A stretch of DNA of 64,000 nt. Source: Vitis vinifera (taxonomy: Eukaryota > Streptophyta > Magnoliopsida > Vitales > Vitaceae). Position numbers and translations under genes: made by a program. Below are positions 1 to 34,964 of the stretch, piece after piece (the first letter of the stretch is position 1; each line of letters begins with the position of its first letter). Location of the stretch: NCBI RefSeq assembly GCF_030704535.1, contig NC_081819.1, forward strand, positions 15,356,501 through 15,420,500, in the 5' to 3' direction. The notes beneath the pieces were generated by a model that worked only from the letters and a program-made list of their open reading frames with translations, had not been told where the DNA came from and ran no database searches.

Positions 1-943
1 ATATCTTGCGCATTTTAAAACAATTTTTAAAATTTAAGAAAATAAAAATTTTCAATTTCTCAAATTTCTAAAATTTTGAAAAGGTGTGGACCCCGCATTT
101 CGATGGCTCGAATGCGTTTCCCACTCGATGACGAGCTCGATTTTATTCTTTGAAAAAATTGATTTTTATTGATTATTTGAAAATGACTTGGAGTCGCCAC
201 TTATTTTTGTTTTATTTTTAAAGGGTAAACAAAATAAGAAAGAAAAACCCTAAGTGTGACTCCTTATTTTGGAAAAGGCGGTCTGTGAAAACCGGATCGG
301 GTTCGGGGGTCAGGTTACTTATCGGGAAGGTACGGTAAAGACCGTAGCACCCCTCTAAGTCCCTAAAGTCGGGTCTCTACTAATAGACGGAAGCTGACGT
401 GGCAATCAATGAGGAAATCGATGAATACTCAAATCGATCATGCACAATATGAGAAGTAAAGCATGTATAAAGAATAGGCGAAATATGAATAGATGCGCAC
501 CTGGGCGGCAATCACGAATGCGCTATCATGAAACATGGTTAGTGAACAATGAACAGATATAATTAAGTGCATATCAAGGAATAGAGTAAACCAATCAAGT
601 ATGGCAAATCAATCAATCAATCAATCAATCAATCATGAAGTCAAATATGTGGGGCCCCCACCAAAGCCCGATTCATTTTTGCATAAATCAATTCCACAAA
701 CTCTATCACTTAGAATTATGGAATTTGATTTTAGCTTATTTTAAAACATTTTAAAACCATGAAAAATTTGAGAGTGGCTCATCAAAAAAAGAAAATGGCG
801 GCCAAATTTTATTGAAAATAGGACTTTTGGAACTTAAAAATTCTAAGGAAGAAGAAAAGATTAGAGTTGGGGTTATTTAAAGACTAAAACCCAAAAATTT
901 ATTTGAAGAAAAGGGTTTTTAAAAGAAAATTATTTTTGAGAAG

Positions 944-1681
944 TCAAAGATGGGAAATGGCCCTTGGGTCAAAGGTGGCCATGCAGTGATACTGTACAAC
1001 CTTGTCTAGGGCGGATGAATCCAGAGCAGGAAACTCCTTAACAGCAGCAAGTTCAAGCTTCACAGCATCACCATGGCTTAGTGCCTCAATGTGTGTCATT
1101 TTCAGTTCTTGATCAACTTTCTTGACTTCAATTTTCTGATTCTCATCAGTGGTACCACCAGTATCGCTTTGTGAAGCTTGTCCCACCTCAGCTTCTCCCT
1201 TGCAGTTCAAATCTCTTGACATACCACGAGCATATCCAACTTCCAGTTTTGTCTGCAGACGAATTCTTCTTCGTGCCGTTCCTTGTGGCCCACAGTTGTT
1301 GGCATCTGATTGAATTTGTGGTTGCCATGTCCTTCTCTTGATTACAGTTCCAGTAAGATCACTACTGCCAATTGCATTTGTATAACTGTTTGATTCTTCT
1401 AAGCTATTGAACAAATTATCTAACTGGTTGACAGTTGAACCAACAGAGAAAGCACCATCACCGAAGTTATTATGTGAGAAACCCATATTGCCACTGTACC
1501 CGACAGCACTGTTGCTAGTGGTAGTCTTGAAAGCACTGATATTTGTTTCCATCTCTTGTAATGCCTCTGTTTTAATGTTATCAACGATGCACGCTGAAGC
1601 ATCAAACTCCACATCAAGCTGTGTTTGACTCATTGCATCTGACTCACGGCATGATCCATTTTCATCGAGGACTAACTCCAA
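944..1681 (-). pseudogene. NAC transcription factor C-terminal fragment inside element A
   Basis: An open frame of 245 residues whose first Met (MELVLDENGS) is probably not a true start: the segment looks like the regulatory half of a NAC protein with no DNA-binding NAC domain. The diagnostic piece is GTARRRIRLQ (about residues 134-143), which resembles the GTAPRRIRLQ motif I recall in membrane-tethered NAC (NTL) proteins. It is preceded by a basic KRRTWQPQIQ stretch and followed by an acidic, Lys-rich tail (ENQKIEVKKVDQE). The usual C-terminal membrane helix is absent; the frame ends in MATFDPRAISHL. It lies downstream of the GYF piece in the same sense and within the LTR-like ends, so I read it as captured sequence. 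The frame is uninterrupted over 738 bases, so this piece is less decayed than its neighbours. Confidence 0.6.
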
Positions 1682-1754
1682 AAATTCAATAACATTAGGA
1701 TCCTGTTCATTTGATTCTCAAAATCCATAAGACATACCCGCCAGCACATGAGGA

Positions 1755-3250
1755 TTAGGAATTGGTTTCATCAAGCATCTTTGCTTCTTCAGGCTGGCAC
1801 TTTTCCAAACAGCCATGCGCATTTGCTTGGATCACAACTGTCGAACATTCCGGGCATTGAGCTATGTGCTTGCAAATATGACATGAGGGAAATTCCTCCA
1901 CCATCCATACATGTACTAACAGCAAACAGTAGCATCCTCGGTACCCATACATTGACACTTGGCTGCCAAAATCTGCAGGACAGTCTGAATATGAAGCATG
2001 TTGTCTCCTTATGAGCTTTTCAGTCTCATTGCCACTTGGTGTTTGCTCTGGAGTTGCTTCGGGCTTATATTGATAGAAGTGACAAGGAGAATCTGAGAAT
2101 ACTCATAAAAAAGGTGACACAACATTTAGTCATTCAGGACCTCTTTCTCTGTATTGGAGAACTTCGACTCCATTAACGAACTGCCATTGATCAGGACCTT
2201 AAGAGGTGAACCTCCCATGCAACCACCACCAATAGCACGTCTGATGCAACACCATAGCTGCTGTGTCTTAGATTCGCATAGACAACATCAGCTTTGCTGT
2301 CTTCTATTAGGTCTTAAGACAGGTTTGAAGAGACACTCGCTGAAACAAAGCCTTCCCCATCTCGGGGTTTAACATTGGGGGATATGGAGGTGGGTTGCTA
2401 GAGCCAAACCCAGAAACTAATGGTGGAGGTCTTGGGATCTGTGTTCCCATTGTACTCTCATGACGGGAAGGCATCCAAGCAAAGATCCCCTGTCCACTTG
2501 CATGGAGCTTCCAGCAGGATTACTGAACTCTGTCCTTAGATGTGAGCCTCCAATCTGATTAAAAGATTGCAATAGCAGCTGACTTGGAAGTGGTGGCTGT
2601 GCCTGTGCAAAGGAAGGCTCAATGCTAGCATTAGGTTGGGTACCTGAATGAAACACAGGCTGTTCACTGCATGGAAATATATATACATCTGCACCCTGGC
2701 ACTCTCTGGAACTCCTTAACATCCTCAGTGTTTCAGCCATGCATTCTTTTGAACATGGGTGAGTGGGATAGTGTGAGGAAGTGGTATGGCGATGAGGGTA
2801 TTGGGGGTATGAAGGTTAGGAAAAGGGCATGAAGGATAAGAGGTGTTGAAGGATGCAGGCATAGGGTTAAGGGTATGGGTGATGAAGTACGAAAACTGGA
2901 AAAGTAATGGGATGAAGGTGACCAAGTGAAAGACTTCCATGCATATGGGAAATGATAGAGATAAGATGAGGGTGAATCAGATGGATGGTGGGGTATTTGC
3001 ATGATGGGAACAAAATATGGGTATGGTGGAATGAATATGATGACAATGGGTATGAAAAATTGGAGAGAGGAAAGGTAGTGAGATGGACTGGGTAAGTTTG
3101 TGTAGGGTCCAGAATGCACAACTTGAAGCGTGTAAAATTGGGCAGTTCTTGGCTACAGTTATGAGTGCCGCATTGGTCCTCTGCTGGTTGAAGTATAGCA
3201 AGGAGGACATAAGAACCAAATCTGCCAGAATATGTCTTATTCAATTCTCA
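1755..3250 (-). other. Unidentified coding-like and low-complexity pieces in element A
   Basis: Several short frames here do not join into one protein. About 2290-2740 contains proline-rich coding-like sequence (PRPPPLVSGFGSSNPPPYPP) next to a frame with SFNQIGGSHLRTEFSNPAGS. About 1755-1958 has a Cys-rich stretch with CHICKHIAQCPEC. The 2740-3120 part is a low-complexity His/Ser/Pro frame made from runs of cccata/tcacc. A similar cccatacc-rich stretch lies in element B at 30460-30650, so that part is probably element sequence and not captured. I recognise no family for the rest. Confidence 0.35.
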
Positions 3251-3273
3251 CTGCTATAGAAGAATTTTCAAGG

Positions 3274-4030
3274 TCAAACACCATGGCCGAAGTGGGGACC
3301 CTCTGATATAGCATTATGAATATACTCAGCAGCTTTTGGTCCATTTTCCACATCAAAACTTATATCAAAAGCAATACTGCCCCTGGTCTTTCCTTGATGT
3401 TGCTGGCACACCATATTTAGCACTAATCCTCTTTGCTTCTGAACACTTGTCACGACATCCATAACTACTCCAGTGTTGCTCATGTTGCCAGAAGTAATGA
3501 TTAGCTCACTATTCCTAGAGTTGTTTATTTCATCAAATTTGAGCTTATCCATTGTGCCAATAGAAAACTCATTCCCATTATTTTCAACGCCCCATATTTG
3601 TTCTTTATAAGATGGAGTAAGAGCACCACTTTCAGAACCTTTTTCCTGCAAGGGTTTTGTGCAAGCAATAAACCCAATTGGTGTTATTTTTAAAACATGT
3701 TTGATCCTTCCACGATGAAACAAAAGAACAGCTTCCAGAACTTGTTCCCCACTCAACACAAGTCACAGCATCCTCATTAGGCTGAGGGTAATTGCTACCA
3801 AAGCCAAATATTAATTCATTATTTCTCAGAGTTGTCTGCTTCAACTCTAGGCCCGCCAGTGCCATTTCTAACACAGTTTCTGTCTCAATATCATTGTGGG
3901 GAATTCCGTTATCCTTCGGACTAGTGCAATCATATTTCAGGGATTGTGAGAAGCCAGTATCTAATTTTGGGTCTTTGTTGGATGGATCTATGGTAATCCC
4001 TGTATCTGAATTCCTTGGATCGAGATAAAC
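3274..4030 (-). other. Unidentified coding-like segment in element A
   Basis: Two overlapping frames (3632-4264 and 3274-3759) have protein-like composition, with stretches such as LELKQTTLRNNELIFGFGSN and KLKFDEINNSRNSELIITSG. The two share a pattern (RNNEL/RNSEL followed by a Gly-Asn-Ser-rich run), so this may be one protein with an internal duplication, or one gene broken by a frameshift near 3700. It directly follows the GYF piece in the same sense, but I cannot match it to that family or to the NAC piece. It could be a third captured gene or element-specific sequence. Confidence 0.3.
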
Positions 4031-4149
4031 CACTTGATGAACAGCATCCAAAACACCTTCACTTGTATTTTCATCATTATCACTGCGAGAGAACTCAGGT
4101 TTTGATGGAACAGACTCCCCTTCAAGCGAGCAGGAGGTTTTGGATAATA

Positions 4150-4985
4150 AGGAGAGGATTGAAGTGCCCAAAGAGGCCTTGCATGTGACTGTTCTTGGCG
4201 AAAATGAAGCTGCTGTTCTGAAGGGGGATGCATTCTCATGCTTCACCTGTGATATGAGCTCCAATAAATCATTTGACCGTCCTCTATATGCATTCTGACC
4301 AATCTGTGCTTGAATGATCTGTTCTAAAGATGGATCCAGTTGCCTTGAAGCAATTCATGGAGAAGGCTTTTCCTCAACAAAACCTGATCAAGCATGTTGT
4401 CGCCCCTAAGGTCCATCTTTGACTGCCCGAAACCCGGATCAGGCATGTGATGATGCCACAACTATTCAAGAAGCAATTGTTGAATATGAGACTGTTGTAG
4501 CTGCTGCTGCTGCAATTTCATTTGGTGGTGATGAAGGTGCTATAGACGAAACCGATGTCATTGATGAAGCTCAAACTCTCGCTGCTGTTGTAACTTAAGC
4601 TCCAAAAGATGTTCCATATCTTATGCTGGATGATGGACTGACTGTTGGAGAACAGGGTTCTTGCTCTGACTAAAAGAAAAACCAGGAAATTACTCCACAC
4701 CTGACCCAATGACATGAGGTGTGGGATGAGGAGATGGACGGTTCTGTGGTTGAAGTTGTTCCTTTTGCAACTCTTGTGATATCAGGTGCTCTGCCAAGTC
4801 ATAGCTACTGAATTCTTGCTCCTTACGAGATCAATGTCAGGCATCTATGACACCTCATGTGGGAGCCTCTGATCTCAGACATTAACAGACCAAAGAGATA
4901 CAACTTATCATCATTATCCATAGGCACGCCAGTTTCTGCATATTCACTTGCAAAAGATTGGGCGGCTGCTCAAATCAGGAAATGA
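4150..4985 (-). pseudogene. GYF-domain protein gene fragment (frames broken) inside element A
   Basis: Reading across frames on the minus strand gives, in order: FASEYAETGVPMDNDDKLYL with FGLLMSEIRGSHMR; YDLAEHLISQELQKEQLQPQ; a Gln-rich run (MEHLLELKLQQQRELELHQ, MKLQQQQLQQSHIQQLLLE); MPDPGFGQSKMDLRGDNMLD then QVLLRKSLLHEL; and NDLLELISQVKHENASPF with SEQQLHFRQEQSHARPL. This order matches my recollection of the Gln-rich central region of the large plant GYF-domain (PERQ-like) proteins. The GYF domain itself is not present. Frames change several times and in-frame stops occur, including a TGA where the family has Arg (DARHLS context near 4840), as expected from C-to-T decay at a CpG. No introns are visible in about 830 bases. 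It is not functional as it stands. Confidence 0.65.
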
Positions 4986-5880
4986 GCCATGAACGTTAGC
5001 AGAGAGCTTCCTTCCAGCTGTTCTCATCATCAAGTTACCATGATTTTCACTGATGAACACCTCCCCTAGCTCAAGCTGCAGAGTCAGTCCTGGATTCTCC
5101 TCCTCTCTCGCAGCCCATGCATTGAACAAGTCTCAAGAACAAAAGGCAACCACCACAGAGAAGAAGCAATAGAAACAGAGCATAAAAAAAACTAAAACAT
5201 CCTCAAATGAGGCGTCACTTCACAGATCATCAGTGAGCCTTCTGGTTAGGTGAGATAAACACAACAAATACAACTATGGGCATGATTCTCGGGATATTTC
5301 ACAGTAGAAGCAAGGTATATTAAGATTAACAACATCAAGCATGGGTTCAAGATTATATATCAACAAGCAACAAGTGGCCTTCATCATCCACCCCAAGCAA
5401 ACCAACAAATATCCAGATATCAACAAGAAATGCAGAGAGATAGCAAAGATCCAAAATAAAACAATATACCTGCTACATTCATACCTGAGAGTGAACCCTT
5501 TTCCAGTGAGGCTCTGTTCAGCTCTAAGCGCCTTAAGTCCTCCTCCAATGCCGATGAAATTAGCAAGCTTACATCCCTGTAACTCTCTCACCAGCATCAA
5601 AAGCCCCCCTACCCTGCAGCCGGCCTCACCTCTAAAAAAAATATCTCCCCCCTGCAACCGTATCCTCCCTGCAGCTGCCTTCTGCCCCTCAACAACCTGC
5701 AGCTTTTGCAGATCCTCCTTGCCAGGTGTCAATCTCTGATTGGCTTTCAAAAACACTGTTCTGATTCCATGGTAGCCAATCAGGGATTGACACGTGGCCT
5801 CCTAGAAATGCTCCATCTGGCCAAATAAGCTGCAACAAATTCAAAAAGAAAGTGCTCCCAAAATGGGGGTCTACAAAAGG

Positions 5881-7181
5881 GCTTTTATGAATAGAAGATA
5901 AAATTCTATTTTTTTTATTTTTTATAATAAAAGTACCTATATTTTATATAAAAGTTCTTATTTTTAAAAAATAAAATATAGAAAATGTATCCAAACACGG
6001 CTTAAGTATCTAACTTTATATTTATATTTTTGTTCCAAAATAGTCTTAGGTGCAAAATTTGATATAAAAAGGGCTTGTAACAAGCGTTTGTCACCAAATT
6101 CTAGAAAGAATTGCATTTGGCTTTTTGATTTTGTGGGGAAATCAAATTGATTATTCGAATATGATTATTAAATTTTCAAGCTTCATGTCGAGGGTCTAAA
6201 CTTTCTAGGACAAATAATTACTAAAAATATTTTTAAAAATTTGCATTCTCCAACACTATCTAAAATATATTTTCAATTTAGAATAAGAAAAACCCTTAAA
6301 TGCATTTTCTTTAAAATTTTTGCTAATCAGAAAAATGATAAGAGGCTACCCAATTGGATTTCAATTTCAAAATTTTAATTACAAAAAATAAGTTGAAAAA
6401 ATAAAAATACAAACAACTTGTAGTATTTTAAAATCAAATTTGTGTATTTCATATTTTTCTATATTTTCAAGAAAAAAGTAGGCTGCCAAACATGTCCTAT
6501 ATTTTTCTTTTTGGACTGAATTATTTTTATGAAAAAAATTACAAGAAAATGTATCATTCCTGAATGCAAATAGGTACCTGCCTAAACTATTACAAATTAG
6601 GAAAATAATAACGATCGATTTGGAACCTCGTGAGATTTAGACATGTTTAATAGTAATATACAAACAAATGAGATTAAAATACAAAAGAAAATATCAACTT
6701 ACGATACAATGGAATCATGATATAAAATAATGGGACTTCCTACATAAAACAAACAAATAAGATTAGGGCATAATGCATATGTGACATCATCAATATTACC
6801 CTTTTCATAGGTACCCAAAAAAAAAAAAGTATACTTACCATTGTAGTGAAACCTTACAAATTATTGTAACCTCCTAGCTAGTGTCCCACTTTCCAACTTG
6901 CCACCACTCTCACCTCCCAACATAGGGGGGCTTAAAGCTGTCTTTTTAGCTTAATTTATACATTTGGTCAAATGGGTCCCTCTCTCTCTCCCCCCCAACA
7001 CTGCTGGTAGAACAAGAAAGCCAGTTACAAGGCAAGAATAGGAATTGTTTTTTCTTTCCCTCGACTAATTCCTTGCTTCCACCAACCCAAAGAATCTAAC
7101 AAGTCATACCTTTTATCTTTCAATATATATACACGCTCGCAGTTGATTTGAATCCACCTCTGTTTTTGTGTTTTGCCAAAA
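5881..7181. other. AT-rich intergenic stretch, no gene seen
   Basis: No coding-like frame was found. The part at about 5920-6003 (tatataaaagttctta ... aaatgtatccaaacacgg) resembles one end of the MITE into which element B is inserted (compare 34010-34089). From about 6840 the composition becomes less AT-rich; a ctctctctcc run near 6980 and a TATA-like tatatatac at 7125-7133 may be the promoter of the gene starting at 7182. Confidence 0.45.
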
Positions 7182-7676
7182 ATGGGACTCGTTCCAAGTC
7201 TCATGAGAAAAGGTTCTCCATTGGCTTTCATCATCCTTTATTTTCTCTCTCCTCTTGCAATTTTTCTTCTTTTATGGCTGTTTTTTTTAATTTTTTGGTC
7301 ATTTTTCAATTGTTCATTTTGCATGTAGGGTTGTCGCAAAAACAAATTGTCAGTCTTGCAATGGAGGGAGTTTTGAAGAATCTTGGGCCACGGAGGTATG
7401 ACAACTTCGAGGACTTCCATTCTTCTATTCTCAGCATCCTCAAGTGAGTACCTCTAATTCAACTACAACTAACAGTATTAAAGATTGAGAGAAGAGCTTT
7501 GTCATAAGCTTCCTAATAATCCAACTCTACAATCAATCAAAATGGTCTTCTTTAAGTGTTGTTTGGTTGCCCAGAAAAGAAGGGATTTATGATTATTGTG
7601 CAACATTTTCCAGGCAACCAAACAACAAACCATCTTTTTGATACAAGCATTTCAGGTAGGCATGTGTTAATACTGG

Positions 7677-7720
<44 letters not shown>

Positions 7721-8254
7721 GGGGTAGTCATTCACCTCTATCAAACTGTCTTAACTTCGCCTGGTGAACAAATCTTCCTCAGAACTGCCAACTCTGCGCT
7801 GCCTGGTAGACATTTTGAAGCACCATCACGTCGGCAAGTAGAGGTCAGTTACCATTGTCTCTGCAGCATCATTTTCCACTCTTCAGAATAGCTTCCTAAC
7901 CATACATGTTACTCCCAAAAAAAAAAAAAAAGCCAGAAGGCTTTTGCAGAATGGAAAAGCTCTAGTGATGACAAAAAGGAGAAAATATTCATGGAGTTGC
8001 TTGAGAGCACAAAGCTTGGCGAGATAGATAACATTACCCTGATAGTAGGCCTGGCAATACCACCCTTCTCCATGGTGGCAAAGAGTGCAGGAGAGAAAGC
8101 GCCTCCCTTCAAAATGATCAAGAATGTCCCTGACGCCTTGTTTGTGCCCTCATTCACACTGTTATCTCTTGTCTCAGTTAAGCTGATCAGAAAAGTTTTG
8201 GAAAATTTTACATTAGGAGAAGAAGAAGAAAAAGGAATAAATGCCCATACCTAA
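7182..8254 (+). pseudogene. Small plant membrane-protein gene, three exons, frame break in exon 1
   Basis: Proposed exons are 7182-7443, 7783-7843 and 7937-8254, all with GT-AG introns and compatible phases between exons 1/2 and 2/3. Exon 1 starts MGLVPSLMRKGSPLAFIILY, a hydrophobic N-terminal helix, then LSQKQIVSLAMEGVLKNLGP with YDNFEDFHSSILSILK. Exon 2 gives TANSALPGRHFEAPSRRQVE. Exon 3 gives KAFAEWKSSSDDKKEKIF and a hydrophobic C-terminal region (DALFVPSFTLLSLVSVKLIR). The order matches my memory of a plant-only membrane protein family that some genomes label calcium ion-binding; its function is unknown to me. The signal-anchor frame and the YDNFEDF frame are offset by one base in the T-rich run around 7281-7300, where the first frame hits a TAG at 7326-7328. 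An ATG at 7274 would open the downstream frame with a new hydrophobic start. So this is a pseudogene, a 1-base homopolymer error, or a gene using 7274. Confidence 0.55.
7682..7717. repeat. (GA)n microsatellite in intron 1 of the membrane-protein gene
   Basis: About 18 uninterrupted ga units followed by a G-rich stretch. It lies between exon 1 and exon 2 of the 7182-8254 gene. No function is implied. Confidence 0.95.
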
Positions 8255-9122
8255 TATCATTGTTGTGGTTGTGCCCTTGATCACATTTTCATCTCCCATC
8301 CCTGTTAAGCTCCTTGGAAGGATCCTTGGAATTCAAGATCGCTGTTTGTATTACCCCCATATGCATGAGGACTCTGTTCTTCATGATTATGCTTCTTATG
8401 CTAGCGCAATGTCAATACATTGCAGCACAAAAATGGCAATTATATGTTAATAATTAAATTTATTTGTTCCTAAATTGTATAATGTCTAAAATGCATCCAC
8501 AATCAGCAAGAGTCAGTAGATAAATTCCACCCAAGAGAGCATCTTCTCCCTACCAACCACCCGCACCCTGCAAGTAAATTCTCTCTTACAAGTGATTCTT
8601 CTTATTCCTATTTTTAGCGTCAACAGCAAAGGTACATTCTACAAGCTACCCTCATTCAAAGGACCACGAGGGTATCTAGCAAACATAAGATCATCCATAA
8701 ACTAGTAAAGAAACCTATGATATCCTGCAAAAATTAAATCGGTTCATTTGATTTGCATAGCAATCCAATAAGCACTACAACTTAAGCATCATTCTCAAGT
8801 CTGAGAAAACTTGAGTTCCTATTATTTTTATTCTAGAGAATAGAATTTTCCCTCTTATAATCCAAAGCAATCCTAAGAAAACTGATACTGAGGGTGCTCC
8901 ACATGGAGCGTAGAAGCAGATGACATCATGTACAAATCAGAGAGAGGGAGGGAGAGACCAGGCCGAGTAAGTAGCATGTACAAACTTGCACGGCTGCAGA
9001 AGTAGCATGTACAAAAGTAAAATGCAGTAGAAGTAATCGACATCCTCCGCGCATAAAAGCTGTAGCTCCTCTAACATCAAACATCAGAAAGAAATAAATA
9101 CTTTGACTAACTTGTTATTTCG
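8255..9122. other. Intergenic region between convergent genes, no gene seen
   Basis: The plus-strand gene ends at 8254 and the minus-strand gene ends at 9123, so both 3' untranslated regions must lie here. A short frame at 8241-8450 shows no recognisable protein. A gagagaggga-type purine run occurs near 8940, and the words gtagcatgtacaaa and agtagcatgtac are repeated around 8970-9015. Confidence 0.5.
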
Positions 9123-12100
9123 CTAGCTGGTGGATCTGCGATTCCACCTGCCTGATTTAGCTTTGCGCCTACCTTGCTTTCTCTTGTTTGTGCGGACATT
9201 AACCTTGGAAGTCGAAGGTGATTTTTCTGTTGATTGAACATGGGGAATTAATGTACTTGTGGATGGGTCAACTTCTGAAGCCAGGACTGGAGGAATGGTG
9301 CTCTCCTGCTCTTCCTTCAGTACCAGAGGCTTTTCTGTGGGATCAACTTTAACTCCATGAAAATTATTTAACTCTTCCTTGGCCACTTGATTATGTATGA
9401 AGACTTCTTCAGTCTGCAGACATGAAGGACGAATTAGTTCAGCTATAAAATAGAATAAAACAATGAACACCCTGAACCACAGAATATCATAAGGAGTATA
9501 GAAGGGCCCGAGGGATAGCTCTCACTAAGAGGCACAGAGAGATTGAGAACCATACTAACTGTAAAACCATGTACTGGAGGGCATATGATTGAAGGGGGAA
9601 AAACAGCTCAGCAAAAATCAAAAGAGCTGTATAGTGCCAACAAAGTTGAGAGCTATGTGCTAAAACTAAACATTAAGACAAACCCAGCGTAGAGAATTTT
9701 TGAAATGAGGTGGATAAAAGATACTTCAAACAGCCATAACTACCAAGATAGGAAGGCAGCTATAGCAACTAAATCATACAAAAGCGGAAGAAAGGCTAAA
9801 ACAAGGTCTGTTTATATCAAGCTGCTAACTTTTAGAAATGAGGCTTAACTGTTTCCTCTTACAAGGAAGAACTTTATTTTGTATGTAAGATAAGTTGACT
9901 AGAAGCATTACCAGCTACAAAACAAATTAAAAATGAACAGATAGTTACAAGAAAATAAAACCTCAGAGCTTCCTCCTACAACTGAATAGACCATGAAAGC
10001 CAGTAAGAAAACCAGGCTTGCAAGGTTATAACACACCAGTGCTTCCAAATTAAAAAGAAAAAAACATAAAGAATTATCATAGAATAAAAGTAATTACTTA
10101 AAAAAAAAAAAAATAACATTTTCATATGAACCCCAACCTGATGCTGTTCTGTGCTTTCAATTATATCTGGAACAGGGATCGCCTCTCCATGACTTGAAGC
10201 TGCAGTTTCAGGCATACCCAGATCTCCCATATTACAGTCAGATACATGCTGAGATGCAGCATATAAAGATCCAACTGGCATTCTATTACCATTGCTTGGA
10301 GAAGTAGGATTTCGAGCAGAACTAGTTGATGCATTACATGGTACAAGCATCAACTTATTTATGGAAGAGTATTTTCCAGCATTTTCATTCACCACCTTGT
10401 CCATTCGGGTTTTTAACTTGTTTACTTGCAATTTTGCCTTTTCAATCTTCCAAAGGATCTCTTCGAAGGAATTATCATTGCCTCTGAACTCAAGAGACGA
10501 CCATCCATCATGAAACCCAAACTCATCATTGTCATTGGTAATCTTACTTGCAGAAACCACTCCTGCAGAAAAGAATGGTATACAAATTGTTCAGTGAGCA
10601 TGTAGACTCAACACCACAAAATTAGGTGAAGATCAATTCTAAAAACATTTCAATATAGCATATGACATCAATCTTTATTCTAAAAGCACAACATGAAAGT
10701 ATCCATGGTAAGAATTTTCGGCATTATTAAACTTAATTTTTGTTCAAACAACTAAAACATTTGTATTTTTATGAAACAGGCACTAAAACTATACACAAAT
10801 TATGAAAGATAAAAATAAAATAAATAAAAAATAAATAAATAAATAAAAGAATGTTAAGGAGATTTGATTGCAATTTCATTCAAATCAAACCTCTGGACAA
10901 TATAATTTAAGATCTTTTTTATTTTTTTATCATATTTCTTCCATTACATATGTATAACTGTTTCAATTTATAACTTCACAACATAAAGAACTAGACATTG
11001 CAGTATTCTTTTTATTTAGAAACAATTATTCTTTTGAAAAAGGACATGTAGTTAAATATAAATAAAAAGACATTCTTCAAGGAAGAATAAATGACACAAG
11101 AAAACATAATCCCTGTGTCAAATACAATGTGAGACTAAACAAGGAAAAAGTTTCCTCCAAAATCCTTAACTGAAGTAGCACTTCCTTGAGCTGTAAACAT
11201 AATTCAGAATCAGCTACCCTATTTTCCCACCAATAACTAGGAACCATCAAAGAAGAAACTTAACAATTTCCTTCATACTGAAGGAATCTTAAAAGGGGCC
11301 TATCAATAGAGATCTAGCCTGCATGTTAAAAAGCATTATTCAAACCCCAAATCCCGTGTTCCCAACCCACCTCCCACCAAACACCCAGAGGGTTACCCTC
11401 ATTCTTATTCTCCTATATATCGGCAAGAAGGCTAGAAATTTATGCTACAGTTGCATATCCCAATTAGATGACCTAGAGAACAAGAAATGATGAAAATTTC
11501 ACCAATTCCTAGCTGACCATAAAAATTCAAGTTAACCCTCCAGACACAAGAAGTTGAAGCACATAACATGAGCAACCGAGTTCATTTAAAAAAAAAAAAA
11601 ATTAATTTCCTTCCAATTTCTTCAGATGACAAAACACTTCATATAGCACAGCAGATGAACTAATTGTATCTTTTGTAATATAGTGTGACTTTTCATAAAG
11701 AAACACACATTAGCTGCTAAAATTAATTTTTTTGATAGGAAAAAAGCATTAATATTATTAACAGAGCCCAATCAAAAGACAGCACAACAAAGTACACGAG
11801 GACTATACAAAGGTGCCAAAAAGCCAATGAGATGAAGAGATTAACAAAAAACACCTCTCTTGCATTGAAAAGAGTCCAAGCAATCAACAAAATCAAACTA
11901 TACATACAGGCACATCTAAATACTTTGTAGCCCAAAGCCAGAGAGAGCACAAGAAACAGTTGAGAGCTCAATTCATTGCCAAAAGCTCTACAATTCCTCT
12001 CCCTCCACATCAGCTGCTTAAATTATAGAGAAACTGATTGCCTATAAATATATATAATATTTTAATTGTGCAGAAATAATAGCTTTCAGTTGGCAAAGTA

Positions 12101-16425: not shown

Positions 16426-16480
<55 letters not shown>

Positions 16481-24094: not shown

Positions 24095-24345
24095 AAACGG
24101 CTCAACCGGTTGAACTGGATAAGGAACCGATCAACCGCCAGCTCAACCGATCGAGGCCCGGGTCGACCCCCAGCTCAACCGGTCGAGGGTGCAAAAAAAC
24201 TTTCTCTTTCTTCCAGAACGGTTGTTCAACCGATCAAGGTCTGGTCGAGGTCCGGTCGAGGTCCAACGGTCACCTACCAAGCATTAAATGCTAACGGCTA
24301 GTCAATCGATCGACCCCTAGCTCGATCGGTCGAACCCCCAACAGC
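24095..24345 (+). repeat. Clustered aaccggt / ggtcga words in the copia U3 region
   Basis: Within about 250 bases of U3 the words caaccggt, ccggtcga and their complements recur many times in both orientations (gctcaaccggttgaactgg, ctcaaccgatcgaggc, agctcaaccggtcgag). The same cluster is present in the 3' LTR at about 26155-26405 with changes. GC content is well above the surroundings. It may be binding-site clustering or a structural element of the LTR. Confidence 0.6.
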
Positions 24346-25054
24346 TAGTTTGGCTTTTTTCTTCTATAAAAAGGCTTCAATCTTCATTGTTTCAAAAGAT
24401 TAACCTTCCCAAACCTTTCTTGAATATATTTGAGCCTTGGAAGAGTGTTTTTTAGTGTACCATTATTCTAAAACTTGCATATCTTTAGTGCACCATTCAA
24501 TCCTAGTTTTCTTGTATCATTTGAGCTTAAAGTTTTTGTACTAGGATTTTGTGAGATCATTTATTTGTAAATCTTTGAGAAGAAGTTTCTCAAGTGTGGG
24601 GTATCACTTGAGGGGTTGTTCAAGAATAAGATATCTCTTGAGAAGTGTAAAGGGTGCTTGGAGCCAAAAGTCCAAGATGGTGAATTAGAACCATAATCCA
24701 ATTGTATTGCTTGAAGGTTTGGTTTGGAAGCCTTGAATTAGTGGAACCTCAAGCTTGGGATTGAAGTTAGAGGAGAGTGGATGTAGGTCGGGTTGCGTCG
24801 AACCAGTATAAAATCTTGTGTTTGCATTCTCTCTTCCCTACTCTTTTAATTTATATGCAATTGTCTTTATATTGTTTATTATATATTTGCATATAATTTT
24901 CTTCTACATTCACATAGTTTAAATTAGCAAAAAGAGACCATCACCTTATTCACCTCCCCCTCTAGGGTGATTACCATAGGTTGGATTAGCCTTTTTTTTT
25001 TTTTCTAACAATTGGTATCAGAGTTAGGCTTCTTATTTAACAGTCTAAGAAGTA

Positions 25055-26069
25055 ATGGCTAATCCATCAAGCTCATCTCACATTGAAAGTTTTTCAACCA
25101 CCCGACCTCCACTTTTCACGGGAACTGATTATCACTATTGGAAAACTAAAATGACTTGGTTTTTTCAATTTACTAATCTTGATTTATGGGATGTCATTGA
25201 AGATGGTCCCCACATTCCTTTAAAATTAGAAAATTAAGTGATAGTTCTAAAACCTAAGCATGAATAGGATGAACTTGATAGAAAGAAAGTTTAATTAAAT
25301 GCCAAAGCTATTTTTATTTTACATTGTGCTATTGATAGAAATGAATTTAATCGTATTTGGCAATGTAAGTTGGCTAAAGAAATTTGGAGACTATTAGAAA
25401 TCACTCATGAGGGAAACAACCAAGTTAAAGAGTCTAGAATCAATATCCTTGTCCATGCTTATGAATTGTTTTCTATAAGGGATTTTGAATCTACTGTAGA
25501 GATGTTTTCTAGGTTCATGGTGATTGTGAATGAACTTGAAGCCTTGGGAAAGACCTACACCGAAGTAGAGAAAGTCATGAAGATCTTAAGGTCTCTACCA
25601 AAGAAATGGGAAACAAAAGTGACGACTATTCAAGAAGTAAAGGATCTCACCAAACTCTCACTTGAAGAACTCATTAGGTCACTCATGACTTATGAGATAA
25701 ATTTGAACAATCACCAAAGAGTTGAAAAAAAATAAGAAAAGTATAGCTTTTATGGCTTCAATAAATGATGATGAAGAGGAAAAGAGTGAAAGTGAAAGTA
25801 ATGAAGACTCCATGGAAGAAGAATGCACAAATGAGGATGCCAACATGTGTTTTATGGATTTGGAAGAGCATCACAAAGACAAATCAAGTCAAGGAGAAAT
25901 CATGAAGAAGAAGACCACCTCAAAGAGAAGTGTTTTTCAAGACCCAAGTTTCATAAGATCTCTTTGTAAGGTTGTTGGTGCACTAGGATTTTCATGCATT
26001 ACATTCTTTACTTATGCACTAAAATCATTCAAAAGTTATTTTGTTTTAAACATTTTAAAGATTGGATGA
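25055..26069 (+). pseudogene. Copia gag remnant, fused to LTR sequence
   Basis: It starts MANPSSSSHIESFSTTRPPL then FTGTDYHYWKTKMTWF, the classic N-terminus of copia gag (DUF4219/UBN2 type). A stop at 25235 breaks the frame. It resumes with KEIWRLLEITHEGNNQVKES and FSRFMVIVNELEALGKTY, LRSLPKKWETKVTTI, then an acidic stretch (DDEEEKSESESNEDSMEEE). The zinc knuckle is missing: after MDLEEHHKDKSSQGEIMKKK the frame reads into 3' LTR sequence and ends at 26069. It is non-functional as a capsid protein gene. Confidence 0.85.
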
Positions 26070-27175
26070 TTTCATGTTTTTAACTAAAACTTTGTGTTAA
26101 ATGTTTTTCAAACTTGTTTTAAAAAAGTTTTAAGTTGAAAAAGTTGGTTATTGAGCCCAAAACGGCTCAACCGGTTGAACTGGATAAGGAACCGGTCGAC
26201 CGCCAATTCAACCGGAAGAGGTCCGAGTCAACCCCCAGCTCAATCGGTCGAGGGTGCAAAAAAACTTTCTCTTTCTTCCAGAACGGTTGTTCAACCGGTC
26301 AAAGTCCGATCGAGGTCCGCTCAAGGTCCAACGGTCACCTACCACGTATTAAATGCTAACGGCTAGTCAACCGGTCGACCCTTAACTCGATCGGTCGAAC
26401 CCCCAATGAGAAGTTTGACTTTTTTCTTCTATAAAAAGGCTTCAATCTTCATTGTTTCAAGAGCTTAACCTTCCCAAACCTTTCTTGAATACATTTGAAC
26501 CTTGGAAGAGTGTTTTTGAGTGCATCGTTATTCTAAAACTTGCATATCTTTAGTGCACCATTCAATCCTTGTTTTCTTGTATCATTTGAGCTTAAAGTTT
26601 TTGTACTAAGATTTTGTGAGATCATTTATTTGTAAATCTTTGAAAGGAAGTTTCTCAAGTGTGGGGTATCATTTGAGGGGTTGTTCAAGAGTAGGATATC
26701 TCTTGAGAAGTGTAAAGGTGCTTGGAGCCAAAAGTTCAAGAGGGTGAATTAGAACCATAATCCAATTGTATTGCTTAAAGGCTTGGTTTGGAAGCCTTGA
26801 ATTAGTGGAACCTTAAGCTTGAGATTGAAGCTTGAGATTGAAGCTAGAGGAGAGTGGATGTAGGTCGGGTTGCGCCGAACCACTATAAAATCTTGTGTTT
26901 GCATTCTCTCTTCCTTAGTCTTTTAATTTATATGCAGTTTTCTTTATATTGTTTATTATATACTTGCATATAATTGTCTCTTACATTCACATAGTTTAAA
27001 TTAGAAAAAATAGACCATCACCCTATTCACCCCCCCCCCCCTCTAGGGTGATTACCATAGGTTGGATTAGCCTATTTTTTCTAACAATTACTAATGTCAG
27101 TTGGACTTTATATGTGGGGCTACCTTTATCTTAGATTAGCTTAACCTATTGAGAGTGTATGTGGTTCCACATCAG

Positions 27176-28940
27176 TTAAACTTTCAATCCACTTTTAAGA
27201 AAAGTATAACAAAAAAGTCTTATATCTTCGAAATTAATTCATGCACTTGATATATAACAACCCCTTAGAGGAAGGGCCAAACAAGGGGTCAATATGTAGG
27301 AGAAATGAAGGTTTGGGCTCTAGAGGGATTTGGTGTTGTTCATATTTTACAAGAAATGCTTACTAATAAATCATCATATTAGAGGATTTGATCAATTTTT
27401 GTACATATCTGTAACTTAAGGAAAAAATGAGTTTTGACTTACTAATTTTAAAAACCATAGAAAAAAGAACCTCAACTTTCATAAATCAATTTTATCTTCA
27501 CTTATTTAAAAATATTTTAAAATACATAAACTTTTTCATAATTTAATTTGACATTAATAAAATAAGAAATTTTAAAAAATTAAAAATACATTTAAAACTA
27601 AAAAAAAACGCTAAAGCTAAAAATATAAAAATAAAATATTATGTATTTTTAAATTTTTTGGTTTTTAATTGTATTTAATTTTTATGTATTTTAGTTTTAA
27701 TTGTATTTTTATTTTTTAAATTTCTTATTTTATTTAGCTAATAAAATTTTTATTCAATTTTATTAAAAAAAAAATGAGAAGATGAGGAGATTTATATAAT
27801 ATAGGACATAAAATCATTATTAACTAGGAGATTATAAAGAGTTTATTTATCACTTGAGGATGTATGAGAATATTTTCATAATGATTTATATCTATATTAT
27901 ATAATAATAAATTTATAATATATTTATTTTTAAAACATTTTTATCAATTTAAAATGACAAATGAATTTTGGATAATTTTATGTAATATTACCTGGTAAAA
28001 AAGTATTTTAGGAAATAATTATTGAAGTTATGAAAAAGTGCATGAATTTTAAAATATTTTTAAATAGATCGAGATAAAACTGATTTATAAAAATTGAGAT
28101 TCTTTTATCTATATTTTTTCAAATTAGTGAGTCAAAACTCATTTTCCCATAACTTTAAGCACTCTTACTAAAATAATAAATTCATTAATACAAAAAATTT
28201 ATAGATAAAAATTAGTTTACAATGATTCTATCATTTCTTTTATGCATATAATTATATTTTTATATTTTTTCACTAAAAAATGAACTTCAAATCAAGTGAC
28301 ACTTTATACTGAATTTATTAATGATTTTTAAAAAATTAAAATAATTTGGAACTAATAAAAAAAATAGATCTAAGTAGTAAAAAAAATTAATAGATTAAAA
28401 TTGATATATTATGATTCATGATTTTAATATTTCTCCTATAAATATAACTATATTTTTAAAATTTTCCCACTAGGTAAATTGATTATAAATTAAGTAAAAC
28501 ATAATTAATAATTTAAATTATTTAATGAATCTTTTAATTTTTTTAAAGAATAATTTAGAACTCAAAAAACTAATCCAATTCATTGCAAATTAAATCAAAA
28601 CATTTTAGAATTATGTTGGTAATTGAGTATTAAATGTATGTATTTAGTACTAAATGTATGCATGTAATATTAAAAAATTAATTTTTAAATGTATGCATAT
28701 AGTACCAAAATCATAATATAAAAATTATTTTTAAAAACAATTTATTCATACAAGTTTTTTTGCTTTTTATTTTTAAAAATAAATTACCAAACACCTTATT
28801 TTTAAAAAAAAAACCACTTAAAAACCATTTTTTGTTCTTTAACTTAAAAATAGTTTTTAAAAACAAATATCAGAAAACAAAGTCAAACAAACCCTATGTA
28901 TTGAAGAGTTTTAGAGCATTTGTTAATAAGAAAACAATTA
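27176..28940. other. Very AT-rich intergenic DNA, no gene seen
   Basis: Long runs of A/T with no coding-like frame. The end (about 28740-28900: aaacaccttatttttaaaaa ... caaagtcaaacaaaccc) looks like one end of a MITE family also seen near 35120-35520 and 63936. Confidence 0.5.
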
Positions 28941-28949
28941 TAGTCAATT

Positions 28950-29390
28950 GAAAAACTCTCTTTCTTCTCATTCAAAGTTCTTCCAAAAGTATATTCGATT
29001 GTCAACTTACAAATTCTTTTGCACACCTTCAAATCCATTATTGTCTCTTCTTACATTGAGAGCCTAATTTGCTACTAGGTTTAGAGTTCTTAAATTCATT
29101 TTAACTTACTCATTATGAGAAAAATTATTCAAGTAGGTTGGTTATTTGAAGATAGTGGAACCCTCCCTTGATTGGAAGTTGGAAGAGAGTGGACAAAAGT
29201 GGTCTATCAAACCGTCATCAAAGAGTTTACAATTCTCTTATCTCAACTTTTTTATATTACTCTTGATTTACTCTTTGATATTATCATATCTTGCTTACAT
29301 TTAATTATTTTCACAAAAATTTTAACACCCAATTCACATCCTACCTCTTGAGTGATTATCTTAATTTAATTAATGTTTTTTCACATACGA
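28950..29390 (+). mobile_element. Decayed copia-type LTR remnant
   Basis: It shares layout with the LTR at 23698-25010: tctcttcttacattgagagcc, a stretch gatagtggaaccctccc with ttggaagttggaagagagtgg, and the 3' landmark cccaattcacatcctacctc with gagtgattatctta. This mirrors ttcacctccccctctagggt with gattacc at the end of that LTR. No internal region or primer-binding site remains. Confidence 0.5.
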
Positions 29391-29554
29391 GATGCTCTCC
29401 TTTTAAATAGAAGCTTATAATTTAAAACAAAAAACAACAATGTATCCAAATGGATACTTAGTGTTGGGATATATAGAATAATAATAATAATAATAATAAA
29501 AGTTCTTTGATAATATATTATAAAAAAAAAAAAAAATTTTAGAAGAATTACTTA

Positions 29555-29685
29555 GAGTCTATTTGATAATGATTATACAAAACGCTTCTAACATTTTTAA
29601 TACTTGAAAGATTCTATCATTCAAGTATTAAAAACATTAGAAACAATTTTTAAAATCACTATCAAATACACTTTAAATGAATGCA
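29555..29685. repeat. Short foldback element
   Basis: The left arm (gtctatttgataatgattat ... tctaacatttttaatacttg) pairs with the right arm (caagtattaaaaacattaga ... aatcactatcaaatacac) around a centre near 29613. Arms are about 55 bases with small loops. It is typical of a small MITE. Confidence 0.65.
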
Positions 29686-30739
29686 CATATATTACTTCAA
29701 GCGATTCTTTAGATTTTTAAAAGTGATTTGGATACACTTCTTATTTTTTGTTTAAAAATTTAAAAATAACACTAACTTCTATATAAAATATAGTAATTTT
29801 ATATAAAATATATGAAATTACCTTGTATCTTTAAAAATTACTTTTAAAATTTAAGATAGTAAAATTTGTTAATACTTTAATATTTTAAATAAATTTTAAA
29901 ATTACTATCTGTAGACCCTTTTAAAAACCAATGGCTTTCCTTTTGTTTCTGACCACCCGGGGAAGAGCTAAAAATCTCATTTTTGAAGTGAGGGGGACCT
30001 ATGCTGGAAAGGGCAAGCAGCGTAGGACGCGTGGAAGAGGATGTGACCATTGCCATGGCAGTGGTCGGAGCTTCAGAATGTGATGGCATGAACAGGGAGT
30101 TGATAGAGGGAAGTTTCTGACCAAGAACGGAGGATGGTAGCAGTGGGGGAGCAGAAAGAAAAAAAAAAAAAAATAGAGGAAAAGAGGAGATCGGGAGCAG
30201 GATGAGAGGAATGGGGGTAGAGAAGGGATAAGGATTTTTTTTCTGCTGCGGACCTCCAAGTAAGGTTATGACGAGCTTGTCATTTTCTCTTATTTCCTAA
30301 AGATTCTATTTCATTTTCTGTTGGCCGATGAGCATGGTTCATTTGTTCACTTTGTCCATCAAGAGTTTCTAAGTTGTCATGGTTGAATCTGCTTGTTTAT
30401 GAATATTACTTTGTTTTGGCTCCCTATTATGTTTTTGATCTCCTACATGCATGGTCGTCTCTCACACCCATTTGTCTCACTACCCATTTCACTCATGGCA
30501 CCCATGTCCTTCATATTTATTACCTTTGTCTATCTGTGTCTTCCATACCCACCAAACTAAATAACCATACCCATCTTGACTTGTATATTCACCGTAACCA
30601 TCCCCACTCTCACCCCATTCATCAAACCCATTCTCTCTCATTTCCATTTTCGCAGTGACTAGGATCAAGTATGAATTACGAAGAATGGACACCTTTCACT
30701 ATTTTTAGTAGTCTCCTCCACACCTGATCTTCTACTCAT

Positions 30740-31429
30740 ATGGACCAACTGTACGGTCTTTACTCTCCCTCCTCCTCCGATTACCATCACCCGCCTCCAT
30801 TTCCGCCGAAAAATCTGATTTCTCCATCTCATTACCCGAATTTTAATTCTCCTGCGCCATTTCCGATCTTTGGATTCGACCAGCTGTTGTCGGCGTCGTC
30901 TGTGGCGGTCTCTGATGCAACTTCCATGGTGGCTCAAATTCAAGGAGGAGGTTCTGGAGATGAGGTTTCCAGTGCTATTCGAACCCAAATCGCTACTCAT
31001 CCTCTCTATCCTAAACTTCTCCATGCTTACATCGAGTGCCAGAAGGTCGGAGCGCCACCGGAGGTGGCGTATCTGTTGGAAGAAATCAGGAGAGGAAGCG
31101 AGCTTTGTAGAAGAAACACCGTTTCCACTTGCTTGGGTGCGGATCCCGAGCTGGATGAGTTCATGGAAACCTACTGCAATGTACTAATGAAATATAAATC
31201 GGATCTCGCCAGGCCTTTCGATGAAGCCACCGCGTTTCTGAACAACATAGAGACGCAGCTCAATACTCTCTGCAATGGTGCTTCCCGAAGCTACGTTTCC
31301 GACGAAGTAGCTAGGTCATTAGAGGAAGGCTTAGAGGAAGTAGAGGGTGGGAAGTTGAAGACATGGAGGAGTACAAGGAGTGTGGCCTTCACAAATGAAA
31401 TACTAAGCAAGAAGAGGTGTCTGAACTAA
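30740..31429 (+). CDS. KNOX (MEINOX)-only protein, intronless, 229 aa, inside element B
   Basis: Residues 1-70 (MDQLYGLYSPSSSDYHHPPP...) resemble the N-terminus of class I KNOX proteins of the KNAT2/KNAT6 type (MDELYGL pattern). KNOX1 lies at about residues 77-120 (AIRTQIATHPLYPKLLHAYI, ECQKVGAPPEVAYLLEEI) and KNOX2 at about 130-180 (DPELDEFMETYCNVLMKYKS, RPFDEATAFLNNIETQLNTL). The ELK domain and homeodomain are absent; the C-terminus is EGGKLKTWRSTRSVAFTNEI. KNOX domains mediate pairing with BELL homeodomain partners, so such a protein could act as a DNA-binding-free competitor, as described for KNATM. That role is inference. Class I KNOX genes normally have introns, but the frame here is continuous, which points to a cDNA copy. 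Only the intact frame supports function; expression is unknown. Confidence 0.75.
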   Translation: MDQLYGLYSPSSSDYHHPPPFPPKNLISPSHYPNFNSPAPFPIFGFDQLLSASSVAVSDATSMVAQIQGGGSGDEVSSAIRTQIATHPLYPKLLHAYIECQKVGAPPEVAYLLEEIRRGSELCRRNTVSTCLGADPELDEFMETYCNVLMKYKSDLARPFDEATAFLNNIETQLNTLCNGASRSYVSDEVARSLEEGLEEVEGGKLKTWRSTRSVAFTNEILSKKRCLN

Positions 31430-32269
31430 ATAAAAAAAAAATGGGTTTGATGTTCCACGCGTGGCTGCAGTTATGAGACTTTTAATGGTTGAAAGGTGGT
31501 AGTGGATAAGGGGTATGGAAAATGGGCTCCAGCAGTGCATGGAACTGGTTGATAAAAGAAAAAAATGGGTTTGTTGCCACTTTGAATGCGTGAAGAAACG
31601 ATGCACTTTAAACTCTTTTCATTTTTTTTCAAACTCTCCACGTTAAAAGTTTCATTTCTTCGTTTATTTTATTTATTCTCTTTTTCTTTTGTTTTTATAT
31701 ATTCTCAAACGATCCTTTAAAAATCCCCTAAAATTTTAAAGTTCTAAATTTATTTACTTATTCATGTATTTTTTCTAAAACAAAAAATTATTATTATTAC
31801 CATTTTCGAAAAAATCTTCTAAAACCCGATTCTAAAGTTAGTTCACCAAACTCTAATTCTCGAAATTCAATTCCCTAAATTTAATTCTTCAAAGTTCAAT
31901 CTTCAAAATAATTTTCTAAGGTTCTAATTTTAACTTTAATTTTCCAAGATTCAAAATTTTAAATTTAATTTTCCAAAAATTCTACAATTCCAAATTTTTT
32001 TTTTTTTTTTAAAACGTCACCTTCAAATAAATTTTCGAAACCCCATTTCCTTTCAAATCAATTCTTCAAAATTCTGATTTCCAAACTTAATTTCCAATTT
32101 CCAAAATTCGAATTTTCATAATTATTTATTTAATCATTATTATTTTTATTCTATTTATTCATTTATTTTCAAAATTCCATCCTTAAATAATATTTTTAAA
32201 ATTCCGATTTCCAAATTTAATTTCCAAATTCCAAAATTCCCATTTTCATAATTATTTATCCAATCATTA

Positions 32270-32590
32270 TTATTTTCGGGTTTCCAGTTTTTGAAATTTA
32301 ATTTTCTGACATTCCATCCTTAAAATAATTTTTCGGGTTTCTGGTTTTTGAAATTTAATTTTCCAGCATTCCATCCTTAAAATAATTTTTCGGGTTTCCG
32401 GTTTTTGAAATTTAATTTTCCAGCATTCCATCCTTAAAATAATTTTTCGGTTTTCCATCCTTAAAATAATTTTTCGGGTTTCCGGTTTTCAAAATTTAAT
32501 TTTCCGACATTCCATATTTAAAATAATTTTTCGGGTTTCCAGTTTTCGAAATTTAATTTTCCAATATTCCATCCTCAAAATATTTTTTTC
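32270..32590 (+). repeat. 57-bp minisatellite in element B
   Basis: About five tandem copies of a unit containing ttttcgggtttccggttttt, gaaatttaattttccagc and attccatccttaaaataatt. Copies differ at a few positions, and one is partly deleted around 32449. Since 57 is a multiple of 3, the minus strand reads as a 19-residue protein repeat, but that frame is a by-product. Confidence 0.85.
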
Positions 32591-34964
32591 GAGTTTCCAA
32601 TTTTCAAAATTTGATTTTCCAAAATTCCAATTTTCACATTTATTTATTTAATCATTATTATTATTCCATTCATTTATTTATTTACTTACTCATTTATTTA
32701 AAATTCAATCTCTAAATAATTCTTCAAATTTCCAATCTCTAAGTTCAATTTCCAAGTTCCAAAATTCCAATTTTCGCAATTATTTATCCAATCATTATTA
32801 TTTTTTATATTATTATTATTCCATTTATTTATTTATTCACTTATTCACTTATTTAAAATTCCATCTCTAAATAATCCTCCAAAATTTCAAATTTAATTCC
32901 CAATTTTACAAAATTCTAATTACCATATTTATTTATTTATTATCGTTATTGTTATTATATTTATTATTATTATCATTTTGTTTATTTATTTTTAAAAATC
33001 CCACCTTCAAATAATTTCCAAGATTCCAATTTTTATAATTTAATTTTCAATATTCCAATTCTCAAATGATTTTCAAAATTCTAATTTCTCTCAAATTTAA
33101 TTTCCAAAATTCCAATTCTTTAATTTAATTTTCAAAACTCTAATTCTCAAATAATTTTTAAAAAAAAATTCTAATTTCTTTCAAATTTAATTTCCAAAAA
33201 TCCAATTCTTAAATTTAATTCCTAAGACTCCAATTTTCAAATAATTTTCGAGACTCCAATTTCCAAATAAATTTCAAAAATTCAGTTTTCTCTCGAACAG
33301 TTTTAATTCCACTTTAGTTTTCAAACAATCTTCTGTTTCTTTTTATTTTTCATAAGTAAGAATGAATTTTTCATAATGCCAAAATAATAAAATTTGTGAA
33401 ACCAATTTATGCAAGATAAATTGGGCTTAGGTGGGGGCCCTACATATGATCCCTTCTGATTGTCATTTGCTATGTTTAATGAATATTAATTAATCTTTGA
33501 CTGACTCTTTGATATGTATGTGATGATCTTGCGTTTGAGCTAACCCTGTTCCTATAATAGCGCACTATTACTTGCTGTCAAGGTACGCTCTCACTCCCAC
33601 TTTGTTTGTTTTTATACATGATTGGTTTTATTATTTGATGATTTATTTGGTATCCATTGATTTCTTTATCAATTGCCACACTTGCTTCATTTTATTAGTA
33701 GAAACCCACTTTTAAGGACTTAAAGGGGTGCTACGGTCTTTACCGTACCTTCTTGATAAGTAACCTGACCCCCGAACTCAATCTGATTTTTCATAGACCA
33801 CATTTTCCAAAAATAAGGAGTTGCACTTAAGGTTTCCTTTCTTATTTTGTTTCTCCTTTAAAAATAAAATAAAAATAATTAGTGACTCTAAGTCATTTTC
33901 TTAATGGATAAAATCATTTTCAAATAAAATCGAACTTGCCATCGAGTGGAAAACACATGAACTGAAATAGAGGGTCCACACTATCTCTTTTAGATAAGTC
34001 TTAGAGCAATCTTACATTTTATATAAAAGTTACTATTATTTTTTATTTTGAAAAACAGAAAACAAGAAATGTATCCAAACAACCTCTTAATTTATATTAA
34101 AAACATTTCCAAATATTAAGAAACATTTTTAACGATTTCAAAATCATTCCCACATTTGCTCTAAATAAGAATATATAATCTAATACTAAAAGTTCAAATT
34201 TGTCTAGGATAAGGTCACAATCTTAATGATTTACATCATTGAAAGGGCTTTTGACTAGTTAGTGTAGATGTTCTAAAAGGGGACCAAGTGGCTTGGCCAG
34301 TATATTTGAGCATTTACTAGAAAATAGACATCTAACGCTAAGACAAAATAAGAGATGTGGATACCATAAGAATAAGAAAGAGTATATTCGAATATTTCTA
34401 TATATATTGGTTAAAAACATGGAAATAAGTGATGGGTGAATTTGACCATCTCATTTTCATATTATAAATAATTTAAAATGGTCTATAAAATCCAAATTAT
34501 TTACATTATAAAATTGTTTTTTTTTTTAATTTCTTTCAACATTAATTTTATATATAGAAATGGATATAAAATATATAATCATGTAGAGACGTTCTAAAAC
34601 TGTGTGGGCTCCTTTAGGTCCGAACAATTTTTATACTGTTAGGTGCAAGTCGTTATAATAGACATATTATATCATACTAAACCACCCCATTTGCAAATTT
34701 ATTTATTTAATTCAAAGATTATTCATATACTTAGTGGAAATCATTTTTTGAAAAGTATTATTTCATTCATTTTGTTAGTATTTTTTTTTTCATTATTAGC
34801 AATTGTCAAATCATTATTTTATATTATAAATATGGGAAAATGATGTTATATTTATTCGTGTATTTGTGTTTTTACCTAATATAAATTTTCTTTTCAAGAT
34901 ATATAAATAAAAAATAATGAATTTTTGTTTTGAGAGATTAAGAGTGTGTTTGATAGCGTTTCTA

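Follow-up and report, generated by a model that had tools for sequence, protein, structure and literature searches.

Two elements in a 64,000-nucleotide stretch of the Vitis vinifera genome (contig NC_081819.1, here C15; C15:15356501-15420500, hereafter the window), which we call A and B, are identified here by their sequence as solitary long terminal repeats (solo LTRs) of a high-copy, Ogre/TAT-like Ty3/gypsy retrotransposon family whose LTRs have repeatedly taken up spliced pieces of host mRNA in the sense orientation. We consider it likely that these pieces entered the LTRs when reverse transcriptase (RT) switched templates, one event filling both LTRs. Our searches of the grapevine's own genome covered 495.6 Mb in 21 contigs (C numbers; related loci are given L numbers).

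The initial annotation of the window had described A and B as LTR-like elements with the same ends, flanked by exact 5-bp target-site duplications (TSDs; AAAGG and CTATC, respectively) and sharing about 650 bases of 3' sequence, all of which our analysis bears out. Both elements begin with TGTAGACCC and end with GGGTCCACA, and their terminal 9-mers occur twice each in the window, solely at these ends, versus 0.13 and 0.15 occurrences expected after shuffling. The common 3' part extends over about 612 bp at 74% identity (5153-5764 in A and 3460-4049 in B, element coordinates), and outside it a single further match of 29 bp links the two elements.

The same annotation had envisaged a class of elements with no pol of its own. 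This is refuted by relatives that hold RT between paired LTRs: the supposed element is the LTR itself. A first look with the last 291 bp of B as query returned 2756 candidates in the genome, 40 of which were scored, and we analysed 20 stretches of 10 kb around related 3' ends, holding 22 such ends. For eight of these 22 ends there is a TGTAGACCC-like start with an identical 5-bp TSD, compared to 4 of 458 combinations swapped between loci; A, B and these eight further ends thus combine TG...CA termini with the short TSD of solo copies. The TSDs of L040 and L041, each with one mismatch, were left uncounted; L040 is a 3' LTR. Downstream of the 3' end, five of 30 loci show AAATGGCGACTCC(A/G)CTGGGGA, which resembles a primer-binding site (PBS), and then a common internal leader (leaders of 1.5 kb, 70-84% alike between loci in long alignments). 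In four of the 20 stretches, an internal end that is common to them and includes a purine tract precedes the 5' end. At one locus, L046, matches to RT_RNaseH_2, RVT_3 and rve follow one another upstream of the 3' LTR end, corresponding to the RT-RNase H-integrase order with an extra RNase H-like domain that marks Ogre/TAT elements; the rve match is weak (E 0.005, below cut-off), the frames are broken so that pieces were scanned separately, and a search for the LTR start of L046 found none. Ogre/TAT elements also carry an extra open reading frame (ORF) before gag.

Paired LTRs flanking pol were found as well. An LTR-end pair on C6, with 99.94% identity over 1797 bp, encloses an RT match, as do paired LTR pieces on C16 and in a C16 duplicate, and a pair on C19 is consistent with this arrangement. 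The RT/RNase H piece gave 4203 first-look candidates, probably including related families; 150 RT matches were scored, many of them in long open frames. Because relatives pair TGTAGACCC-like ends with a PBS-like site, a purine tract and pol, we conclude on sequence grounds that A and B are solo LTRs. The full-length partners with pol between two such LTRs for which the annotation had proposed to look therefore exist, one of them with a capture in its LTRs. As a separate observation, the last ~100 bp of the LTR are repeated head to tail at L013/L042 (C4:826224-826620), joined by AAATGGCGACTCC, an arrangement that looks like a new LTR end copied onto the start of the PBS.

The KNOX-type frame annotated in B was confirmed by Pfam matches to KNOX1 (5e-21) and KNOX2 (1e-25). 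Its donor (C17:10393764-10395107) was matched in three exons, and B is continuous over all three. B is 94% identical to 416 bases of the donor's 5' untranslated region (UTR) and exon 1; this match starts in the CT-rich stretch that closes B's C-rich block and ends at the splice border of exon 1, the following GT being common to both, and at the end of exon 3 B departs from the donor at the border again. The KNOX capture is common to B and one C12 copy (L031) only, a member of the same subfamily that is 90-93% alike and that is longer by 5 kb, this extra sequence being a nested copia element (330-bp repeats; RVT_2).

Such pieces might instead be processed pseudogenes made by long interspersed nuclear elements (LINEs) and inserted by chance into the LTRs of the family. 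Copies made by LINEs are expected to be 3'-biased and to have no fixed orientation, whereas the piece in B is the 5' part of the KNOX mRNA, starting in the UTR and lacking a recognised 3' end, and 13 host families were found in sense and none in antisense in the survey below. Processed pseudogenes are indeed unusually numerous in grapevine, and LINEs have been proposed as their source (PMC7935947; this and the other articles cited here are drawn on in their accessible parts), but we regard a LINE origin of the captures as very unlikely.

The GYF- and NAC-like pieces that the annotation had seen in A stood up in part: genome searches lead from them to a NAM-domain gene on C16 and a GYF-domain gene on C14, whereas Pfam scans of ten ORFs, nine of which belong to A, detected neither a NAC nor a GYF domain. 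The NAC donor lies ~1 kb from the NAM domain, and its 86-base intron (GT...AG) is exactly absent from A. The GYF match at C14:25258047 lies 1.3 kb past the GYF domain on the same strand. Another site, C9:21651158, was rejected as GYF donor on account of A-type LTR sequence ~1 kb upstream (93%), which identifies it as another LTR copy.

Capture by DNA recombination or by read-through from neighbouring genes, in the manner of Pack-MULEs or 3' transduction, would be an alternative to uptake of mRNA, and capture of this kind is common among plant transposons (review PMC13317346). Yet it is contradicted for the KNOX and NAC pieces by the absence of introns at the splice borders; moreover, the donors of both lie on other chromosomes and the pieces sit inside the LTR rather than past its end. 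We consider it scarcely credible in this family.

The GYF piece is present in A and five copies (C2, C9, C10, C11), whereas the NAC piece was found at high identity in A and the donor only, with no match in A's C2 sister, which has a GYF piece 97% identical to that of A. A was therefore loaded in steps: its captures are layered, and the GYF piece is older than the NAC piece. The first 213 bp of A have a different history. The three copies on C3, C7 and C9 that match A closely there are merely 77-79% like A beyond position 213, and the C2 sister is 94% identical to A beyond this patch and 71% over A 1-154, so that A's LTR must be recombinant.

Shared pieces of this kind could also mean that captures were few and very old, present diversity having arisen mostly as old LTR sequence diverged and recombined. 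The occurrence of the KNOX piece in B and the C12 copy, of the GYF piece in six LTRs including A and of a KH piece with matches at four further sites (85-96%) fits this explanation. It accommodates less readily the thirteen host families in 15 loci, the KNOX piece's 94% identity with donor UTR and exon 1, and a NAC piece in A that has no matching counterpart in the C2 sister, and we judge it unlikely.

Across the family, nine of the 17 LTRs examined (A, B and 15 others) hold recognised host pieces. Pfam scans of 79 sense ORFs from 15 loci matched 13 host families (KNOX, PHD zinc finger, PP2C, LIN ARM domain, calpain, NUDIX, helicase, BRWD1, neurobeachin, ABC transporter, Ysc84, NLP and KH), or 12 families in 78 ORFs when the KNOX ORF of L031, which was knowingly preselected, is set aside. 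By contrast, matches in 69 antisense ORFs were confined to one nested copia ORF (five families). The scanned ORFs came from a list of 181 (at least 75 amino acids after removal of low-complexity sequence). The 33 unscanned ones comprise 24 of L031, at least 11 of them in the nested copia element and including all 12 antisense ORFs of this locus, and nine sense ORFs of L033, L038, L040, L042, L044, L047 (two) and L048 (two); L032, L035, L036, L046, L049 and L050 lay outside the ORF scan.

Several genes may occur in one LTR, as in L041 (helicase, NUDIX and BRWD1) and L040 (PP2C, LIN and calpain-like). The ABC and Ysc84 pieces of L034 are placed only to within ~2 kb of the LTR 3' end, and position 3577 of this locus was dropped as LTR start, being inside a nested copia ORF (2337-6758). 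The AT-rich LTRs (L042, L044, L047, L048 and B) have repeats in common besides the ends and the 3' part; A, L037, L038, L039, L040, L041 and L045 have the ends and 3' part in common and little common interior. The proposal of the initial annotation that host transcripts are repeatedly taken up between fixed ends is thus upheld in that members carry different genes, in that recognised pieces are in sense and in that they are spliced where read against a donor. A uniform interior, which it had named as the mark of old family sequence, is not seen family-wide but does occur within subfamilies (KNOX in B and the C12 copy, GYF in A and five others), and the donors are located elsewhere in the genome.

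Likely donor sites were obtained for seven pieces (KNOX, NAC, GYF, PHD, PP2C, NLP and KH), those of the last four being best-matching candidate sites. The PHD piece of L039 is continuous over four separate collinear C5 matches, of which one lies 18 kb away from the others, and the PP2C piece of L040 is continuous over at least two C18 matches. The NLP piece of L045 is 87% identical to C2, and the KH piece of L038 is 91% identical to C6 over 45 residues. The capture in a full-length element resides on C16, where PP2C matches occur at C16:20228606 and C16:20247415, on one strand and 18.8 kb apart, with RT between the two PP2C-bearing LTRs at C16:20239561; the lower copy is the 3' LTR, as judged by its ends and the purine tract. 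Similarly, the PP2C pair on C19 is consistent with a piece in both LTRs. Separately, C16:20043273-20062610 and C16:20228606-20247936 appear to be a duplicated retrotransposon block, ~185 kb apart, in which the PP2C arrangement is repeated.

On the basis of the sense orientation, the splicing and the presence in both LTRs, we favor a switch of template to host mRNA while U3 is being synthesised. Host mRNA would be packaged together with element RNA, and RT, while copying the U3 of the 3' LTR, would jump to the mRNA, copy it towards its 5' end and then jump back to the element. As U3 is copied once and placed at both ends, a single event would load both LTRs, and daughter elements would inherit the piece. 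Repeated rounds, along with recombination between family members, could stack several genes in one LTR, and later LTR-LTR recombination would leave solo LTRs such as A and B.

Several points weigh against this interpretation. First, no host piece was identified in eight of the 17 LTRs, and three of the 13 families (calpain, neurobeachin and KH) score below the Pfam curated cut-off. Second, the family sample was selected by likeness to the 3' end of B, one 5' junction only was read against its donor, and the step of LTR synthesis at which the switch would occur is an inference. Third, two of the three PP2C matches on C18 overlap on the query, making the exon count uncertain, L045 showed no second NLP-bearing match on C15, and other weakly matched donor sites may be LTR copies, like C9:21651158. 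Finally, the flank control (80 ORFs from 11 of the 20 stretches) returned, apart from transposable element domains, one kinase ORF (L042) and one ORF with LRR domains, and it is weak, as 40 of the 80 ORFs (L037, L038 and L040) represent internal retrotransposon region; the remaining 40 ORFs (~34.5 kb) make the better flank. The kinase ORF (L042:2-1291) lies ~3.9 kb upstream of an LTR.

A C-rich, G-poor block was present in 11 of the 18 LTRs examined for it. Its position in A, where it is rich in ACCCAT and separates upstream from downstream captures, and in B, where it overlaps the 5' capture junction, suggests that it may be a landing site for template jumps. It is conceivable, if somewhat doubtful, that LTRs of this family ordinarily grow and diversify by taking up mRNA, the pyrimidine-rich block acting as landing site to and from mRNA leaders. 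If so, the family would be a continuing gene-shuffling system and a main source of grapevine's unexplained excess of processed pseudogenes.

Gene pieces shuffled between fixed ends are also a feature of Pack-MULEs, which are DNA transposons with terminal inverted repeats; the grapevine family has LTR-type ends, a 5-bp TSD and captures without introns. The host capture of the maize element Bs1 is internal. Pack-MULE pieces, unlike those in grapevine, include introns (PMC4717578). Exon-only host pieces are known in LTR elements, namely Bs1 and the soybean terminal-repeat retrotransposon in miniature GmaRetroS15, for which fragments of three host genes are named, in the internal regions as opposed to the LTR (PMC4717578). 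Foreign sequence was acquired through abnormal template switching in BARE-2, inside the LTR, and in Veju, but the accessible text gives the source as the retrotransposon Wis-2 (BARE-2) and unknown sequence (Veju), with no host gene (PMC13317346). A genome-wide survey of LTR-captured genes in rice and sorghum counted them within full-length elements, and capture inside the LTR is not a theme of its accessible part (PMC3726574).

Ogre/TAT elements of dicots resemble the grapevine family in LTR length (1.9-6.5 kb, PMC6431247, versus 2.4-7.7 kb, excluding one LTR with a 5-kb nested element), and an LTR-to-LTR spacing of 17.8-18.8 kb, a second RNase H-like domain after RT and degenerate repeats before the 3' LTR add to the likeness; host cDNA inside the LTR, however, is undescribed in the accessible part of PMC6431247. 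The degenerate repeat arrays of L037, L038 and L040 (~1-1.5 kb) lie close to where the internal region ends, ahead of the 3' LTR, and repeats in that place are named for TAT elements in a reference title of PMC11963269, our source for Retand elements.

Gene capture by LTR elements is thus known, and repeated, multi-gene, spliced capture inside LTRs is apparently new: we found no report of it in the open-access literature, most subscription papers being outside reach. If capture in U3 is routine, one accident of reverse transcription would place host cDNA in both LTRs and later copies would spread it, making the family an RNA-level exon shuffler with rules unlike those of Pack-MULEs or Helitrons. 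The family is also a candidate source of grapevine processed pseudogenes and a testable alternative to LINEs (PMC7935947). Given the near-identical LTR pair and the many RT matches in long open frames, recent captures may differ among cultivars.

Features of A and B, in window coordinates (aa, amino acids)
Feature	Position	Strand	Remark
Element A	85..5875	-	Predicted solo LTR, 5791 bp; ends TGTAGACCC/GGGTCCACA, 5-bp TSD, shared 3' part
TSD AAAGG of A	80..84 and 5876..5880	.	Exact 5-bp duplication
3' part common to A, B and family (in A)	112..723	-	
NAC gene piece, spliced	1094..1714	-	aa 2-208; donor C16:26655816-26656719
C-rich, G-poor, ACCCAT-rich block of A	2726..3150	-	
Third gene-like piece	3635..3829	-	aa 176-240; 80% to C18:4468306 (749-aa open frame), candidate source
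Second gene-like piece	3857..4132	-	aa 75-166; 76% to C14:6672799, candidate source
GYF gene piece	4193..4351	-	aa 2-54 of 240-aa ORF; 72% to C14:25258047
Recombined patch (first 213 bp of A)	5663..5875	-	96-99% to three copies (C3, C7, C9)
Element B	29910..33980	+	Predicted solo LTR, 4071 bp; ends as in A, 5-bp TSD, shared 3' part
TSD CTATC of B	29905..29909 and 33981..33985	.	Exact 5-bp duplication
C-rich, G-poor block of B	30460..30659	+	Overlaps 5' capture junction
Spliced KNOX mRNA piece	30632..31301	+	5' UTR and exons 1-3, exon 4 may follow; donor C17
229-aa ORF with KNOX1 and KNOX2 domains	30740..31429	+	
AT-rich degenerate direct repeats, B-type LTR	31877..33268	+	
3' part common to A, B and family (in B)	33369..33958	+	

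Elsewhere in the window, broken copia-type pieces unrelated to A and B lie at 57582-58115 (minus strand) and 62706-63932 (plus strand), with matches to Pol_BBD and, weakly, to integrase and gag.

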